From Candidatus Dadabacteria bacterium (GTDB lineage: Bacteria; Desulfobacterota_D; UBA1144; Nemesobacterales; Nemesobacteraceae): 64,000 nt of DNA. The translations under genes and the position numbers were made by a program. Numbering within the stretch: position 1 is the stretch's first letter; each line of letters opens with the position of its first letter. This document shows positions 14,016 through 20,341 of this stretch, piece by piece. The stretch spans positions 40,345 through 104,344 of the forward strand of contig VXTZ01000007.1 in assembly GCA_009837205.1 (NCBI GenBank). Direction: 5' to 3'. Below the pieces are notes generated by a model that made no database searches, had not been told where the DNA came from, and worked only from the letters and a program-made list of their open reading frames with translations.

Positions 14016-14465
14016 TCAGAACACCCGTTCAGATTCGTTGATTACGCTTTCTTTGACGCGCGGGTGAAGACCTTCCCGAGTCGTCACGTCAACCTCACAT
14101 CCTAAGTTGTCTTCAAGAAACTGTTTTACCCCGGCTAGGTCAAGCAGACTGAAGCTGATTCCCGGGTCAATGTCTATAAAAAAGTCTATGTCGCTTGACG
14201 AGGTGTTTTCACCCCGAACGGCGGAACCGAACAGGAAAATGGATTTTACTCCTTGTCCGCGCAACGGTTTTTCAAGCGACAGAACCCGTTTATGAATTTC
14301 TCCTTTTGTCATGGGTTTTGCTGGAAGCCCGTCGGTTGATGCTATATCTCTTTCCACTAGAAGCCGCAACGCTTCGCGAACCACTTCGCTTGCGTTGTTG
14401 TAAAGTCCAGACGAAACCTTTTTCCGGATAAACTCTTCCAGTCTGGGTGTGAGCGAAACATTCAT
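14016..14465 (-). CDS. ParD-like ribbon-helix-helix fused to a nucleotidyltransferase
   Basis: The first ~45 residues, MNVSLTPRLEEFIRKKV then YNNASEVVREALRLLVERD, are a ParD/CopG-type DNA-binding antitoxin domain. The rest is an MNT-type minimal nucleotidyltransferase with FLFGSAVRGE and SDIDFFIDID, the GS-x(9+)-DxD catalytic signature. I chose ATG 14465 because the ParD domain begins there and AGAGG precedes it; an earlier ATG at 14528 adds 21 unrelated residues. MNT proteins usually pair with a HEPN toxin and ParD with ParE; neither toxin is adjacent. The promoter region carries an inverted repeat that could be its own operator. The domains are clear; the function is inferred. Confidence 0.8.
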   Translation of the reverse strand: MNVSLTPRLEEFIRKKVSSGLYNNASEVVREALRLLVERDIASTDGLPAKPMTKGEIHKRVLSLEKPLRGQGVKSIFLFGSAVRGENTSSSDIDFFIDIDPGISFSLLDLAGVKQFLEDNLGCEVDVTTREGLHPRVKESVINESERVF

Positions 14466-14495
14466 CAGCTTGCCTCTGCAGTGCATAAGGATACT

Positions 14496-14527
14496 TTGAT
14501 AACAGGGTTTATCAATCTCTGTTATCA
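14496..14527. promoter_or_regulatory. Inverted-repeat operator with TGATAA half-sites
   Basis: TGATAACAG (14497-14505) and CTGTTATCA (14519-14527) form a perfect 9-bp inverted repeat, centre to centre 22 bp, about two helical turns. A further inverted half-site, TTATCAA (14509-14515), lies between. Clusters of short half-sites at such phasing are what ribbon-helix-helix repressors such as ParD bind. The element lies between the ParD-nucleotidyltransferase gene and the divergent AlbA gene, so it could control both. Confidence 0.5.
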
Positions 14528-14559
14528 TGCTCCGCTTCGTTGCTCGCTGTTGCGAGGGG

Positions 14560-14586
14560 TTGTTTTTTCAGTCTTTGAAGTATAAT
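14560..14586 (+). promoter_or_regulatory. Possible promoter of the AlbA/ATPase gene
   Basis: TTGTTT (14560-14565) and a perfect TATAAT (14581-14586) are separated by 15 bp, slightly short. The ATG of the downstream gene begins 9 nt after the -10 box, implying a leaderless or almost leaderless transcript. A small hairpin (CTCGC/GCGAG, 14543-14556) lies just upstream. Confidence 0.4.
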
Positions 14587-14595
14587 TTATCCAGC

Positions 14596-16350
14596 ATGAC
14601 CTACAGTAGCGAGCATATCATAGAGCAGTTGTCGTTGGGTGAGGACAGCCACTGGGAATTCAAGCAGGTTGTATTTGAGGGAGATCGTCCCAAGAGTCCA
14701 AGCCCCGACAATTGGGCCGACGAGATGGCTGCGTTTGCAAATACAAGCGGCGGGGTACTGCTTTGCGGGGTCACCGACGGGGGAGAAGTGCAGGGCATGT
14801 CAATCGGCCAGATGGACGAGCTTGAAAGGCTTCTGGTGGAAGTATCCTCTAATTCGATAAAGCCCTCAGTCCGGATCAATACATTTCGCAAAAAAATAAG
14901 GGGAAAAGGGGCGATTCTGCTGGTTGAAATACCTGAAGGTTCCTCGCAGCATGACAGTCCCGGAGGCAGCTTTTGCCGGGTGGGGAGCTCAAAGCGGAAA
15001 ATGACGAGCGATGAGAGGTTGCGTCTGGCGCAAAACAGAGGGCAGTCTCGTTTTCTGTGGTTTGATAAACAGACGGTGCCGGAAACCGGATTTGAAACGC
15101 TCAGCAGAGAATTGTGGAATCCCCTGCTGAGTGCCGAGAGTGCCGTTGACCCCGAACTTGCGCTTGTGAAAATGGGTTTGCTGGCTGAAGACGAAACCGG
15201 CACTAGGAGGGCAACAGTGGCCGGCGTGCTTTTGTGCAGCGAATCTCCAGAGCTTCTTCTTCCTAACGCCTCAGTAATGGCCACCTTTTATCTTGGCAAG
15301 GACAGGGCGTCAAAACAGGCTGACGCGCGGGTAATCGGCGGTCCGGTTAATCGGCAGATTGCCGATGCGGTAGCTTTTGTCTTGCGGAACATGAAGACCG
15401 CGGCGCGCAAGGAGCCCGCCCGGGTTGATATGCCTCAGTACAGCGAGAGAGCTGTCTTTGAGGCTGTTGTAAACGCTGTTGTTCACAGGGATTATTCTGT
15501 AAAGGGAAGCAGGATTCGCCTCTCCATGTTTGAGGACAGGCTTGAGATACTGTCTCCGGGTGCTCTTCCGAACAATCTTACCGTTGACAGTATGGACATT
15601 CGCCAGTCCACGCGAAACGAGATACTGGCCTCGGTGCTTGGACGGATGCCGGTCGGCGGTGCCAGAGGATCCGGAGAAAGACAGTTTTTTATGGAAAGGC
15701 GGGGAGATGGAGTGCCCATCATCCGGCGGGAAACTCGGGAACTCTGCGGCAAGCATCCTGAATACAGACTTATTGACGGGTCGGATCTCTGTCTTACCAT
15801 TCCGGCAGCTTCCTTGGAGGCTGAAGCTGCTAGCCCGGTCATTACGGTACGTCATTCGGGCAGACCCCTGCCCGGAACGAGCGTGCTGGTACTGTTTCCA
15901 AACAAGACTTGGAAGCTTGCCGCGACCGATGAGAACGGAGAGGCGACGGTCAGCCTGCATTCAATTCATCTGCCGATGACCGTGTTTGTCGCGGCTGAAG
16001 GCTTTGCCGCTCATGTTGAGCGGGACTGGGTTCCCGCGCAAGCGTCTCTCGCAGTCGAACTGGAAACTTTACCCGAGGGGGGTTCGGTAATTTTCGCTGA
16101 GTCTACGGGAAAGATACCGGGATTGAAGGGGAGACTGAATCCCATTAGAGATACTCATGACCGCACCTATCTTTACGCCTCCAACATCGCGATCGAAAAG
16201 GGAAAGCAGCAGCCGGTTCATTTCACTCTTGGAGAAGGACTGATCCTGACTGACTCGGACGGGCGGGAAATGCTTGTGCGCATTATTGAGATTTTCGGAA
16301 GGTCGTGTCTTGTGGAATATCGCGGCCATGCCAAGCTCGAAACGGGATAG
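14596..16350 (+). CDS. AlbA_2/Schlafen-type ATP-binding protein with Ig-like extension
   Basis: The N-terminus is an AlbA_2 (Schlafen-fold, divergent AAA) domain, residues 1-160, with WEFKQVVFEGD, AAFANTSGGVLLCGV and RVGSSKRKMT. A GHKL-like ATPase C-terminal region follows (about 270-400) with FEAVVNAVVHRDYS, LEILSPGALP and RGSGERQF. Such proteins are often annotated as transcriptional regulators or defence-linked ATPases. Residues about 415-480 resemble a carboxypeptidase-regulatory beta sandwich (GRPLPGTSVLV, TDENGEATV), and the last ~100 residues are unrecognised. I start at ATG 14596, after a TATAAT box; the frame is open 23 codons further up without support. Confidence 0.75.
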   Translation: MTYSSEHIIEQLSLGEDSHWEFKQVVFEGDRPKSPSPDNWADEMAAFANTSGGVLLCGVTDGGEVQGMSIGQMDELERLLVEVSSNSIKPSVRINTFRKKIRGKGAILLVEIPEGSSQHDSPGGSFCRVGSSKRKMTSDERLRLAQNRGQSRFLWFDKQTVPETGFETLSRELWNPLLSAESAVDPELALVKMGLLAEDETGTRRATVAGVLLCSESPELLLPNASVMATFYLGKDRASKQADARVIGGPVNRQIADAVAFVLRNMKTAARKEPARVDMPQYSERAVFEAVVNAVVHRDYSVKGSRIRLSMFEDRLEILSPGALPNNLTVDSMDIRQSTRNEILASVLGRMPVGGARGSGERQFFMERRGDGVPIIRRETRELCGKHPEYRLIDGSDLCLTIPAASLEAEAASPVITVRHSGRPLPGTSVLVLFPNKTWKLAATDENGEATVSLHSIHLPMTVFVAAEGFAAHVERDWVPAQASLAVELETLPEGGSVIFAESTGKIPGLKGRLNPIRDTHDRTYLYASNIAIEKGKQQPVHFTLGEGLILTDSDGREMLVRIIEIFGRSCLVEYRGHAKLETG

Positions 16351-16425
16351 AGGTCGACTGCCTCGGCAAAACTTCCGTCTGCGGTATACTTGTCCGGGAA
16401 GAATATTTTTGCCGGGACAGAAAAA

Positions 16426-16953
16426 TTGCAGAAGCGAATCTACAGGGTGCTATTTCTCTGCACGGGCAATTCGATCCGTTCGATCATTGCTGAATCTCCT
16501 TTGAATTACGATAGCGACGGAAAATTTGTCGGCTACAGTGCGGGCAGTCATCCCCGGGGAGAAGTTCACCCTCAAGCCCTTAATCTGTTGTGCGGCAAGG
16601 GACACGCCATTGAGAACCTGCGCTCCAAGTCTTGGGATGAATTCAAGGTGGAGGATGTTCCTTCGATGGATTTTATCTTGACAGTGTGTGACAACGCGGC
16701 GAATGAACCTTGTCCCGTGTGGCCGAGCATGCCGGTGACGGCTCACTGGGGTCTTGCGGACCCCGCGGGCGTTGAGGGAACTGAAACTGAGCAGTTAAAA
16801 GCTTTTGAAAAAGCCTACGACTTGCTCAAAGAGCCTATCGCTGCGTTTCTGGCCCTTCCGTTTGACTCGCTTGACAGCGTGGAACTTCGTGAGAGACTTG
16901 AAAAGATAGGGCGCCGTGGGTCTGGAACGGATGGAGAGGAGAATAGTTACTGA
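16426..16953 (+). CDS. arsC: Arsenate reductase-like low-molecular-weight phosphatase (ArsC/LMWPTP)
   Basis: The P-loop RVLFLCTGNSIRSIIAE carries the CX5R catalytic signature, with Cys as nucleophile. Later landmarks are TVCDNAANEPCPVWP, with two more Cys, and HWGLADPAGVEG, the catalytic Asp-Pro. This is the thioredoxin-coupled ArsC pattern, which reduces arsenate through three cysteines. No arsR or arsenite pump is nearby, so a phosphatase role or genome-scattered ars genes are possible. The start is uncertain: TTG 16426 gives the family-like N-terminus, and TTG 16390 would add 12 residues but overlaps a TATACT box at 16385-16390. It follows the AlbA gene by 75 bp. Confidence 0.82.
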   Translation: MQKRIYRVLFLCTGNSIRSIIAESPLNYDSDGKFVGYSAGSHPRGEVHPQALNLLCGKGHAIENLRSKSWDEFKVEDVPSMDFILTVCDNAANEPCPVWPSMPVTAHWGLADPAGVEGTETEQLKAFEKAYDLLKEPIAAFLALPFDSLDSVELRERLEKIGRRGSGTDGEENSY

Positions 16954-17021
16954 CGTTTGAAGCGTTTCTGTCCGACCACCGCATGAGACCTGAATCGTTC
17001 TGATTCTCACGCAGAAGCACT

Positions 17022-17495
17022 ATGAAGAAACAAAAAACCCTGTATCTGGCTAACCCCTACGGCTTTTCCGCGCAGCAGCGCGAAGGGCCTCTGGCGGTTC
17101 TTGTCGAGGTTCTGGAATCAATGGGAGCCGAGGTATGGGAGCCGTTTTCCCGGAACAATCAGGTTGATAAGGCGGTTGCCGGCTGGGCCTATCAGGTTGG
17201 ACAGTCGGACCTCAGGGACGTGCGTGAGGCCGACGGGTTGTTCGCGGTTGTCAATGGATGTCCGCCGGACGAAGGAGTTATGGTGGAACTGGGAATGGCT
17301 ATTGCTTGGGAAAAACCCGTGTTTCTGTTCCGAGATGACTTCCGCAGCTGCACCGACAGCGAGGTCTATCCGCTCAACCTGATGCTGTTTGCCGGCATGC
17401 CTGAAAAGGGCTGGGAGGCTTACTTGTATGGTTCTGTAGAAGAGATAACCGACCCGGACAAAGCGCTGGCGAGATGGCTTAAAGATGCGGACTGA
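17022..17495 (+). CDS. Nucleoside 2-deoxyribosyltransferase family protein
   Basis: Members of this family cleave or transfer the deoxyribose of nucleosides or nucleotides during salvage or detoxification. The 157-residue protein has the N-terminal YLANPYGFS, the Asp in LRDVREADGLFAVVNG, and the catalytic Glu region EGVMVELGMAIAWEKPV. It is the size of the usual single-domain enzymes. It is preceded by arsC and convergent with the alcohol dehydrogenase gene. Substrate cannot be predicted. Confidence 0.85.
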   Translation: MKKQKTLYLANPYGFSAQQREGPLAVLVEVLESMGAEVWEPFSRNNQVDKAVAGWAYQVGQSDLRDVREADGLFAVVNGCPPDEGVMVELGMAIAWEKPVFLFRDDFRSCTDSEVYPLNLMLFAGMPEKGWEAYLYGSVEEITDPDKALARWLKDAD

Positions 17496-17526
17496 TTACT
17501 TTTTTAGAGACGAGTCACCAAAAAAT

Positions 17527-18561
17527 TTACCAGTCTGCTATTCTTAGGACCCTAGCCCCCTTTCCTCCTCCCTTTTTCATTTCCAGAAGTGCCGCGTTTG
17601 CCTCTTCAAGTTCGTACTCGGTGACTTCAGCCTCTATTCCCAGAGTGGACGCGGCCGAAAGAAAGCCGGCAACATCTTCCCTTGTGACATTCGCTACGCT
17701 TTTTATCTCTTTCTCAAGCCAGAGATGCGACTGGTAATCGAGACTCAGCAGAGAATTGATGTCGGAGTTCTCCTTGCTTATGGAGTTTACAATCAGTTTT
17801 CCCCCGGGGACAAGATTCTCAAGCGAGCGCAAAACGGGCGTCCATGCCGGAGTGGTGTCAATGATGCCTGAAAGCTGCTTGGGGGAGTGCTCTTCAATTC
17901 CGCCTGACCAGGATGCTCCAAGCTCCATGGCGAACAGCCTTTCCCTTTCTCCTCTTGCGAATACGAACACCTCGCATAGTGGATATGAGTGACGAAGTAG
18001 CTGTATGACCAGATGCGCTGAAGCTCCGAATCCCATAAGCCCTACGGCGTCGCCGTCTGTTATTCCGGAAAGTCTGGCGCAACGGTAACCTATCGCTCCG
18101 GCACACAGGAGAGGGGCCGTCTTCACTGGGTCCATTCCCTCCGGTATGCGGTGAACGAAGTCTGCGTCCGCGACCATAAATTCGGCAAAACCTCCGTTTC
18201 TGTCCCTGCCGGTGGCGATGAAATCATGGCAGAGGTTTTCCCGTCCGCTACTACAATAGGAGCATTTTCCGCAGACTCCTCCTATCCACGCAACTCCGAC
18301 CATATCGCCTGCGTCGAAACTTCTTACGCCCGAGCCGTGTTCTTCGACCACCCCCACGACTTGATGTCCTGGAACAATCGGAAGAGACGGGGGGATCACC
18401 CTTCCTTCTGCCTCGTCCATGTCGGTGTGACAGACCCCGCAGGCTAAAATGCGTATTAGCACTTCTTCTTCAGCGGGTTCTGGTGTGGGAATCTCGAGCA
18501 GTTCAAGAGGAGTATCGTTATTGAGCAGGTCGTACGTACCTCTTAGAACCATTGCCTTCAT
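17527..18561 (-). CDS. adh: Zinc-dependent alcohol dehydrogenase
   Basis: This medium-chain dehydrogenase oxidises alcohols with NAD(P). The catalytic zinc site is in ACGVCHTDMDEAEG, with the conserved PGHQVVG. The structural zinc lobe is CGKCSYCSSGRENLCHD, with four Cys. The Rossmann segment has VGLMGFGASAHL, typical of the AdhP/propanol-preferring branch. I start at ATG 18561 (MKAMVLRG), the family N-terminus, giving 344 residues; an in-frame ATG 24 nt upstream has no support. The gene is convergent with the deoxyribosyltransferase gene. Confidence 0.9.
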   Translation of the reverse strand: MKAMVLRGTYDLLNNDTPLELLEIPTPEPAEEEVLIRILACGVCHTDMDEAEGRVIPPSLPIVPGHQVVGVVEEHGSGVRSFDAGDMVGVAWIGGVCGKCSYCSSGRENLCHDFIATGRDRNGGFAEFMVADADFVHRIPEGMDPVKTAPLLCAGAIGYRCARLSGITDGDAVGLMGFGASAHLVIQLLRHSYPLCEVFVFARGERERLFAMELGASWSGGIEEHSPKQLSGIIDTTPAWTPVLRSLENLVPGGKLIVNSISKENSDINSLLSLDYQSHLWLEKEIKSVANVTREDVAGFLSAASTLGIEAEVTEYELEEANAALLEMKKGGGKGARVLRIADW

Positions 18562-18607
18562 CACGCTACCAAGTATAACACGCATATATGGCGTGCGGGC
18601 CGGTTCC

Positions 18608-19195
18608 TCACTGCTTGCTTGTTCCGAGTGTGGTGTCCGCGTACGCCCTCAGAACGATTTCCGCTGCGACTCTTGCGTCTTCTCCGGCGTCGTGGTGGCG
18701 AAAATCAATCCTGAGGTCCCGGGCAATATTCTCGAGATTGTAACCCCTAAGGGCGTATTTATCCGGCCAGGCGCGTCGCGCTACCTGCGCACTGTCAATC
18801 CAGGTTCCGTAACGAAGAGATTTTCCACATTCTTTAAATGCTTTTGAGATTGCTCGACGGTCAAAGAATGTATGGCTTACGACGATTTCTCCCAAGTGTC
18901 GCGCGATCTTGTCGCATAATTCTTCAAACCGCGGGCAGCCACTTACCATCTTCTGGTCTATGCCGTGTATGGCGATATTGTACGGATCAAAAAAGTCATG
19001 CGGATCAACAAGCTGCGTCCATACCTCTTTGATCTCCGCTGATCTTACCACCGCGATTCCCACTTGGCAGATGCTTGAAACGTTTGAATTCGCGGTCTCG
19101 ACATCGATGGCGACAAAATCCAGATTTTTACTCGCGTGGAGATAGTTTTTTCCGTTTTGCCCGCAGGGCGTTTTCGGCTTTCCGGCTTTTTTCAT
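18608..19195 (-). CDS. 3'-5' exonuclease, DEDDh family (DnaQ/RNase T-like)
   Basis: This protein has the exonuclease fold with the four acidic motifs: DFVAIDVETAN (motif I), a middle Asp in SHTFFDRRAISKAF (motif II) and HHDAGEDA (motif III with the His and Asp). The 195-residue length fits a stand-alone proofreading-type exonuclease rather than a full DnaQ with a polymerase-binding tail. TAGGAG sits 5 nt before the ATG. It follows 46 nt upstream of the adh gene in the same direction and may be co-transcribed with it. DNA repair or RNA trimming are both possible. Confidence 0.88.
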   Translation of the reverse strand: MKKAGKPKTPCGQNGKNYLHASKNLDFVAIDVETANSNVSSICQVGIAVVRSAEIKEVWTQLVDPHDFFDPYNIAIHGIDQKMVSGCPRFEELCDKIARHLGEIVVSHTFFDRRAISKAFKECGKSLRYGTWIDSAQVARRAWPDKYALRGYNLENIARDLRIDFRHHDAGEDARVAAEIVLRAYADTTLGTSKQ

Positions 19196-19263: not shown

Positions 19264-19291
19264 TTTAAACTCAGATTATATTGTTTATAAT
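19264..19291 (+). promoter_or_regulatory. Probable promoter of the tandem zinc-ribbon genes
   Basis: TTTAAA (19264-19269) and TATAAT (19286-19291) are separated by 16 bp on the plus strand, in the 129-bp region divergent from the exonuclease gene. A GGAGG follows at 19314 and the start codon at 19325. The -10 box is perfect and the -35 weak. Confidence 0.5.
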
Positions 19292-19324
19292 TCTCCAAAT
19301 TAAAAGTTTTTCCGGAGGCGTAAG

Positions 19325-19828
19325 GTGCCGTTATATGAATATGAGTGCGACAGTTGCATGGAGAGTTACAATACGGACATAGACAGTCTGGTCGCCAAGC
19401 TTACCAAGACAAACGCAAAGAAGATTTTCAAGCAGAATCGCAACTTCTGTTATGTTGAAGTCACAAGCGATAAGAATGGAAAACTGTTTTTCGAACTGGG
19501 GGAAAGGGGCGTACGCGGCGCGAGAAGGTTTCGTTATAAGCTAGATAACGGAAAGGTCCTTTACCTTGAGCTCAAGGACTTCCGCTTCGATCACCTTGTG
19601 TACGGAGATGATGATCAGGATGAAGTCAAATGCCCTCTCTGCGACGATTCCGAGACAGTGAGAAGGGTTTTTTCCACTTTCAAGGCCATATTCGACGATA
19701 AGAATAAAAGAGCTCCAGGTCCCGGGGATGAGCTTAGATGGCATCTTGAATACAAACAGCAAAAGGATGAAGAAATAGCGAGCGACTGGGTAGGGCAGGA
19801 TCACCTGAACCAGTATTTCAACAGATAG
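19325..19828 (+). CDS. FmdB-like zinc-ribbon protein with inserted domain (paralogue 1)
   Basis: The protein begins MPLYEYECDSCMESY, exactly like the FmdB family zinc ribbon, with Cys8 and Cys11. The second Cys pair, CPLC, is not the usual ~15 residues later but at residues 103 and 106, followed by the FmdB-like TVRRVFSTFKAIF. About 90 residues are therefore inserted inside the ribbon, including GERGVRGARRFRY and LKDFRFDHLVYG. The GTG start has GGAGG 6 nt upstream. A related gene follows 9 bp downstream with the same layout. FmdB proteins are small putative regulators of poorly known function; I cannot say what this one does. Confidence 0.75.
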   Translation: MPLYEYECDSCMESYNTDIDSLVAKLTKTNAKKIFKQNRNFCYVEVTSDKNGKLFFELGERGVRGARRFRYKLDNGKVLYLELKDFRFDHLVYGDDDQDEVKCPLCDDSETVRRVFSTFKAIFDDKNKRAPGPGDELRWHLEYKQQKDEEIASDWVGQDHLNQYFNR

Positions 19829-19837
19829 GAGACGCAA

Positions 19838-20341
19838 ATGCCCCTCTATGAGTTTGAATGCATCAAGTGCAGACGCAACGTTGAGAAATCATTGAAGGCT
19901 CTTGAGAGAAAACGGGACAAGGAGACCGTAAAAAACCTTGTCGAGAAATATGACAACATAAACGCCATAGAAGTTATCGACCTTGAGCGCGAAGAAATAG
20001 TCGCGAAGCACGGAAGAAGGGGAAAAGATTCCATATTCAACGACTTTTACCTTAAGGACGGAGCCCTGCTTGCGCTTTTCAACATGCGAAACTACAGATT
20101 TTCCGAGCTTATATACGAAGAGGGGGACGAGAAAAACGTAAAGTGCTACTGCGGGGAGAAAAAGAAAGTGGAGAAAGTTATCTCGACTTTTGCTTTTACC
20201 AAGGACCTCTCAACCAATATGCCGAAGCCCGATCTCTCGAACCTGCCGCCTTCGGTTAGAAACAGAACTTACATAGGAGATTACATAGAGGAAAAGGACA
20301 GGCCTAAAAAGCACAGACCTCCCAAGGGAAAAAGGCAGTAG
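19838..20341 (+). CDS. FmdB-like zinc-ribbon protein with inserted domain (paralogue 2)
   Basis: This 167-residue protein matches its upstream neighbour in length and layout: MPLYEFECIKC (Cys8, Cys11), an inserted region containing KHGRRGKDSIFNDFYLKDG and MRNYRFSELIYE, then a second Cys pair at 103 and 105 (KCYCGEKKKVEKVISTF). The second pair is C-x-C, not CxxC. The C-terminus is basic (RPKKHRPPKGKRQ). It starts 9 bp after paralogue 1, preceded by AGGAG. The two genes arose by tandem duplication after the insertion. It is convergent with hisIE. Confidence 0.72.
   Translation: MPLYEFECIKCRRNVEKSLKALERKRDKETVKNLVEKYDNINAIEVIDLEREEIVAKHGRRGKDSIFNDFYLKDGALLALFNMRNYRFSELIYEEGDEKNVKCYCGEKKKVEKVISTFAFTKDLSTNMPKPDLSNLPPSVRNRTYIGDYIEEKDRPKKHRPPKGKRQ

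Follow-up and report, generated by a model that had tools for sequence, protein, structure and literature searches.

Tandem FmdB/Ruc-family genes of Candidatus Dadabacteria with a predicted domain insertion in the zinc ribbon

Two adjacent open reading frames, P1 and P2, in a 64,000-nucleotide stretch of a Candidatus Dadabacteria genome (the window, that is, the whole stretch of DNA that was analysed) raise the question of what a small zinc ribbon of the FmdB family might do when its two cysteine pairs stand far apart, and how two genes with such a layout came to stand in tandem. The case matters because it is a clear example of a whole domain inserted into one of the smallest metal-binding folds and retained both past a gene duplication and throughout a bacterial class, and because the pair could help show what the widespread, little-studied FmdB family does. 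The first-pass annotation of this DNA had proposed tandem FmdB-type ribbons with split cysteine pairs, and this was borne out: both reading frames were recovered (Table 1), and the FmdB model TIGR02605 matched each protein in two separate stretches. The whole-protein score of P1 (32.7 bits) lay above the curated cut-off of 31.3 and that of P2 (28.7) just below it. The Pfam family PF09723 (Zn_ribbon_8) gave E 1.8e-07 and 31.5 bits for P1 and E 1.1e-04 and 22.5 bits for P2, both below its gathering score of 34.4 bits, and 34 of the 35 P1/P2 family members scanned matched TIGR02605 at E 0.001 or better. The cysteine pairs are 91 residues apart in both proteins, compared with 16 in L001, an ordinary FmdB of the same genome; P1 and P2 thus lack the continuous FmdB ribbon of about 50 residues, in which the two knuckles are separated by about 16-20, and the insert-free orthologues of P2 have it. 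The roughly 90 residues first given for the insertion hold for this spacing, but the insert itself, delimited by alignment with the insert-free forms, comprises about 73 residues. The same alignment placed RFSELIY, which follows the insert, in the ribbon's own second strand, with the counterparts CGEVFEILVL in the ordinary FmdB and CKHKFSEIIY in the insert-free P2; the motifs YRF and LIY, previously counted as features inside the insert, both belong to that strand. A third motif, GxRG, does lie within the insert, where only its first glycine (59) is invariant. From their sequences and models, P1 and P2 are paralogous FmdB/Ruc-family proteins whose zinc ribbon holds an inserted domain in its first hairpin.

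Table 1. Coordinates of the P1-P2 gene pair and its parts in the window, and of the insert-free P2 orthologues in their own loci.
Feature	Position	Strand	Remarks
P1, FmdB-type zinc ribbon with insert	19325..19828	+	167 aa, GTG start; orthologues class-wide
P2, paralogue of P1	19838..20341	+	167 aa, ATG start; orthologues found
Sigma-70-like promoter candidate, weak	19264..19291	+	10/12; 3 such sites in the stretch against 1.1 expected by chance
Shine-Dalgarno-like GGAGG, 6 bases upstream of the P1 GTG	19314..19318	+	read directly
P1 first half-ribbon, residues 1-12	19325..19360	+	Cys 8 and 11
P1 insert, residues 13-85	19361..19579	+
P1 second half-ribbon, residues 86-118	19580..19678	+	Cys 103 and 106; TIGR02605 stretch 87-119
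P1 C-terminal tail (conserved), residues 119-167	19679..19825	+	mean pairwise identity 0.76 (residues 119-165), insert 0.56
Shine-Dalgarno-like AGGAG, overlapping the P1 stop, 6 bases upstream of the P2 ATG	19827..19831	+	read directly
P2 first half-ribbon, residues 1-12	19838..19873	+	Cys 8 and 11; TIGR02605 stretch 1-20
P2 insert, residues 13-85	19874..20092	+	stretch missing from the short P2 of L073, L093 and L094
P2 second half-ribbon, residues 86-117	20093..20188	+	Cys 103 and 105
P2 C-terminal tail (conserved), residues 118-167	20189..20338	+	mean pairwise identity 0.69 (residues 118-158), insert 0.45
Insert-free P2 orthologues, three genomes of one clade	L093:6435-6698; L094:2309-2572; L073:7232-7546

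Regarding the identity of the insert, the initial statement that no described family is known to have this layout agrees with our searches, in which whole-protein queries of Pfam, NCBIfam, PHROGs and PDB sequences gave no acceptable match of a catalogued domain to it. Weak matches, such as those to Scm3 (E 0.03) and PhoU (0.055), touched the insert far below the cut-offs and were rejected, and PHROGs returned only weak matches (E 0.04 or worse). Among the matches listed from the literature on FmdB, Rv0991c and Dadabacteria, no report of a split FmdB ribbon was found. The insert is predicted to fold as two helices and four strands: in the AlphaFold2 model of P2 the elements run H9-24, H28-37, E41-48, E53-59, E66-72 and E77-83, with an insert pLDDT of ~88-95, and the model of P1 shows the same order at ~76-88. 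The pLDDT was ~71-72 at the second knuckle of P2 and low at the termini of both proteins. In the P2 model, strands 3-8, 87-91 and 111-114 follow one another as they do in FmdB, which fits a closed ribbon. Since the C-terminal tails of both proteins were poorly modelled alone, they may be disordered without a partner. The structure searches yielded no decisive structural relative of the insert.

Of the 57 genomes of the class, 52 proved in a profile search to carry P1, P2 or both, a recurrence that rules out chance as the source of the split-ribbon pair; the remaining five, in which nothing matched, are 77-96% complete assemblies. P1 and P2 adjoin on one contig in 50 genomes, including G025, where P2 is broken; in G037 they lie on two contigs, and G023 holds only a P1 fragment at a contig end. 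The gap between the genes is 9 nt in the window; of the 94 loci compared, several per genome, 93 have a gap of 3-27 nt, and the one outside this range is that of G025 with its broken P2. Outside the class, none of the matches listed in 329 genomes was a full-length P1 or P2: the full profile matched 38 of these genomes at E 0.01, and the matches listed, except for G375 (three internal stops), covered a half-ribbon, in some cases together with a portion of the tail, and scored no more than 25.7 bits. The insert profile gave weak partial matches in four of the 329 (20-22 bits, E 2e-4 to 1e-3), which were taken as noise. Additionally, relatives occurred in at least 23 named genome records; among the matches listed, 11 are Candidatus Dadabacteria, including the four closest (89-96% identity to P1), and the other 12 bear the names Deltaproteobacteria, Desulfobacterota, Thermodesulfobacteriota, uncultured bacterium and, once, Hydrogenedens. 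The insert is real and old and, as far as searched, confined to one bacterial class. A viral or mobile origin was considered but gained no support: two viral contig scans contained no relative and 72,556 plasmid records no match to P1, the PHROGs matches were weak, and a viral structure library returned nothing better than E 0.089. When the inserts of P1 and P2 were compared alone, hhalign gave a probability of 88.6% and E 2.6e-06 over 59 columns, and the profile comparison of the whole proteins gave E 1.3e-28. In the unrooted combined tree of 89 rows (nine of 98 omitted as short, broken or with many X), a 100/100 branch separates the P1 from the P2 rows, and the f8 rows of P1 and of P2 each group by themselves. 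Because the inserts are homologous and the P1 and P2 rows lie on opposite sides of a fully supported branch, the insertion, judged from the sequences, preceded the duplication, in agreement with the first-pass annotation, and the duplication preceded the radiation of the class.

The insert is missing from P2 in three genomes (G017, G029 and G031), where the protein is an ordinary FmdB ribbon of 87 residues that keeps the usual P2 tail. These short forms scored 54.8-57.6 bits on TIGR02605 against the cut-off of 31.3, and that of L093 reached 47.0 bits on PF09723, above the gathering score of 34.4. Because the insert-free P2 is a complete ordinary FmdB with the same tail, the insert evidently sits in an otherwise intact ribbon. 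In G025, which is kin to these genomes, the P2 frame is broken inside the insert (L095:5678-6119), through either gene decay or an assembly error. On the P1 tree (midpoint root), the four genomes form one group (97/89) nested among genomes with a long P2, and all 50 distinct P1 rows retain the insert. Because of this nesting the short P2 looks derived, the insert having been lost, and a short ancestral state was judged unlikely on the same ground; the short-P2 label needs two changes on this tree, the genome in between being G025 with its broken P2. That an ordinary FmdB took the place of P2 was considered less likely than a deletion, given that the short form retains a P2-like FSEIIY...KKLKCP stretch and the tail. 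The clade, with the insert gone from one copy, allows naturally insert-free ribbons to be compared with those that carry it.

The cysteines themselves were examined across the family. All 50 P1 rows keep the first CxxC along with at least two Cys in the second cluster and thereby at least four ribbon Cys, a number found in 44 of the 48 P2 rows (G013 has three, and three rows are broken or masked); the P2 of G052 lacks Cys 11. The second knuckle of P1 is CxxC in 37 of 50 rows and spread in 13, all of them f8 rows, of which 12 have a Cys six places on and one has that place masked. For the second knuckle of P2, the count over 48 rows is 17 with CxxC (19 when two rows with a broken or masked first half are included), 15 with CxC and seven with CxCC; seven other rows comprise five with adjacent Cys-Cys and no Cys 103, the single Cys of G013 and the masked G050. 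The genus-mate G007 has CYCC at this place, and ordinary FmdBs of the phylum also vary (CPCG, CxxxxC). As aligned, the second knuckle of P2 is irregular in spacing, and the CxC of the window's P2 is one of several variants, with no stable difference between the copies. The suggestion that CxC in one copy and CxxC in the other reflect divergence in metal binding did not survive these counts, in which P1 varies as well.

Conservation was highest at the two ends of P1 and P2. Mean pairwise identity, calculated with eleven of 98 rows omitted, was 0.76 for the P1 tail (119-165), 0.56 for its insert, 0.52 for the second half-ribbon and 0.74 for the first 12 residues; the corresponding values for P2 were 0.69 (tail, 118-158), 0.45, 0.66 and 0.77. 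When the window proteins were compared to their orthologues at nine f8 loci (of 13 in all, three were set aside for masked letters and one for being short), the median identities were 51.8% for P1 and 46.2% for P2, followed by HisIE (44.3), Era (43.2), SSB (41.4), GlmU (37.2), enoyl-CoA hydratase (35.4), the Nudix protein (34.1) and GlmS (32.4). Omega alone exceeded the pair, with a value of 69.5 from one locus. Because P1, P2 and their tails are so highly conserved, the apparent strong constraint speaks for a core function and a fixed partner of the tails. As the pair surpasses several housekeeping neighbours in conservation, it may serve a core function specific to Dadabacteria that is still to be discovered.

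In the gene neighbourhood, enoyl-CoA hydratase, on the opposite strand, precedes P1 in all 31 loci examined, and HisIE, also on the opposite strand, follows P2 in 29; Era is a neighbour in 27 and AspS in 22 of the 31, and omega, ssb, glmU and glmS lie near the pair in part of them. Pfam served to check the identities of Era, enoyl-CoA hydratase, HisIE, AspS and omega; the names of ssb, glmU, glmS, hyuA and the Nudix protein are presumptive. FmdB may be linked to aspS in Proteobacteria. Because P1 and P2 are separated by so few nucleotides and flanked on both sides by genes of the opposite strand, they probably form a transcription unit of their own. Enoyl-CoA hydratase directly adjoins P1 in most other loci examined; in the three examined genomes of the window's genus several genes stand between the two (14016-19195 in the window), including those for a low-molecular-weight phosphatase, a nucleoside deoxyribosyltransferase, an alcohol dehydrogenase and an RNase T-type exonuclease. 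The commonest neighbours in the 31 loci, whose families are annotated in part, included no gene recognisable as that of a chaperone or protease. Heat-shock control by CIRCE was also considered and set aside, as the window contains no CIRCE element.

As to function, the closest guide is Ruc (Rv0991c) of M. tuberculosis. The study describing it reports that reduced Ruc is zinc-bound and inactive, with Cys 8, 11, 29 and 32, and that oxidised Ruc holds unfolded proteins and aids Hsp70, for which its tail is needed (PMC7448276). According to the same study, Ruc tails are variable, hydrophilic and disordered, and ruc often lies near chaperone genes (PMC7448276). A further report annotates Rv0991c as FmdB family (PMC13407613); this annotation and the common Cys positions make up the link between FmdB and Ruc, PMC7448276 itself not using the name FmdB. 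Other papers present predicted FmdB-family selenoproteins, which the authors who predicted them read as a sign of a thiol redox function (PMC2398784; listed again in PMC13188914), and a Burkholderia FmdB gene among candidate genes with an essential domain (PMC8770471). Hsp33 (PF01430) was found in none of 60 genomes, 57 of them of this class, with controls positive in 8 of 14, and it is likewise missing in lineages where Ruc dominates, as stated in the Ruc study (PMC7448276). We favour, at a probability of roughly 0.35, the explanation that P1-P2 is an adaptor of two subunits that docks by its tails on a core machine, with a Ruc-like zinc/thiol switch perhaps present in P1. P1 and P2 would form a heteromer through their inserted domains, the ribbon would still close behind each insert and hold zinc, and the near-invariant C-terminal tails would dock on one fixed core partner. 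The least certain steps are that oxidation of the Cys cluster might release zinc and free the tail, as in Ruc, and that P1, partnered by P2, might serve protein quality control as an adaptor responsive to zinc and thiol state. In favour of the adaptor are the family matches, the homologous and cleanly separable inserts with their predicted fold, the separate gene unit, the constraint on the tails, the Cys retained in all P1 rows, the redox switch of Ruc and the lack of Hsp33. Weighing most against a plain Ruc-like role are the conserved tails, the irregular second knuckles and the absence of recognised chaperone neighbours; with tails more conserved than the insert and the second half-ribbon, P1 and P2 do not match the variable tail of Ruc. 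Further points against the adaptor are the family cut-offs missed (TIGR02605 by P2, PF09723 by both), the lack of CIRCE in the window and the loss of the P2 insert in one clade. Moreover, ordinary FmdBs were present in all 12 genomes searched and in G000, so P1-P2 is not needed to supply a Ruc to these genomes.

Close behind the adaptor, though itself only tentative, comes the reading that the pair, restricted to this lineage, serves a core machine (ribosome or RNA polymerase, for instance) as an accessory subunit or assembly factor; zinc would then be structural only, and the tails would thread in like the extensions of ribosomal proteins. Such a subunit would suit the core-like conservation, above that of Era and SSB, the conserved tails that are poorly modelled alone, the basic median pI (8.7 for P1, 8.2 for P2) and the frequent presence of Era and aspS beside the pair, but the last two genes lie outside the probable P1-P2 transcription unit, and the net charge is modest, its sign varying among orthologues. 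It would also suit the helix/strand order of the insert, which is that of the presumed C-terminal domain of uS3: chains of the small ribosomal subunit were matched, the highest Z being 6.5 for P1 (3.0 A over ~70 residues) and 6.6 for P2, the uS3-type matches in the upper rows having Z ~6-6.6 over 68-89 residues at 2.9-5.8 A. We take the matched chains to be the uS3 C-terminal domain, 7osa and 7osm being named uS3 and the others assigned presumptively. However, Z values below 8 can reflect a common arrangement, and one clade tolerates the loss of the P2 insert. Unlikely, in our estimate, is a more specific proposal, namely that the insert is a new domain family from the Dadabacteria ancestor or earlier and that P1 and P2 heterodimerise obligately, forming a stable pair of subunits, specific to the lineage, in a universal machine (ribosome, RNA polymerase or Hsp70 system) to which their tails anchor them.

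The structure search suggests a further role, which we consider distinctly improbable: a Cache/PAS-like sensory module set in the zinc ribbon, the insert binding a small ligand and the ribbon and tail relaying the signal. The best matches of P2 were indeed Cache-type sensor domains, led by CqsR (Z 8.8, 70 residues, 2.3 A) and followed by TlpC, TlpA and sporulation kinase D, and P1 matched similar entries at Z no higher than 7.7, with Cache-type alignments of ~70-78 residues. Nevertheless, only part of the domain was matched, the Foldseek E-values were 0.04 or worse, and no Cache or PAS model occurred among the 25 of 50 Pfam families listed for the 31 members scanned. Cache-type sensor domains are extracytoplasmic, and neither P1 nor P2 showed, by eye, a signal peptide or membrane segment. 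The least probable role, with very little chance of being correct, is the transcription regulator implied by the family annotation 'FmdB, regulatory protein'. The family name and the members annotated as regulators in the literature would argue for it, but the pair has no adjacent target operon, the family scans listed no DNA-binding domain beyond zinc-finger-type matches, and the only biochemically studied member found is a chaperone (PMC7448276).

When compared to known systems, the predicted fold of the insert, a pair of helices and then a sheet of four strands, resembles the arrangement in Cache-type sensor cores and in the presumed C-terminal domain of uS3, but no sequence relation to either was found, the identity being 4-18% in the alignments listed and the similarity near background. 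With the FmdB family at large, P1 and P2 have in common the start (MPLYEYEC/MPLYEFEC), the first CxxC at 8 and 11, the second knuckle, the third strand and a C-terminal extension; they differ in the ribbon split by ~73 residues, in forming a paralogous pair and in their specific conserved tails. The ordinary FmdBs of the same genomes (L001, L120-L131, L135-L137, L141-L144 and L149) belong to the same ribbon family, in contrast without the insert and with other tails, many of them rich in Ser or Gly and Cys by eye. Among other FmdBs of the phylum, L144 (165 aa) and L136 (124 aa) carry long C-terminal extensions that look helical by eye, and no insert. Finally, Ruc, as portrayed in the study cited above (PMC7448276), has the positions of Cys 8 and 11 and a zinc ribbon plus C-terminal extension in common with P1 and P2, but only 17 residues separate its pairs, it lacks an insert and its tail is variable, whereas P1 and P2 combine the far wider spacing of 91 residues with conserved tails.
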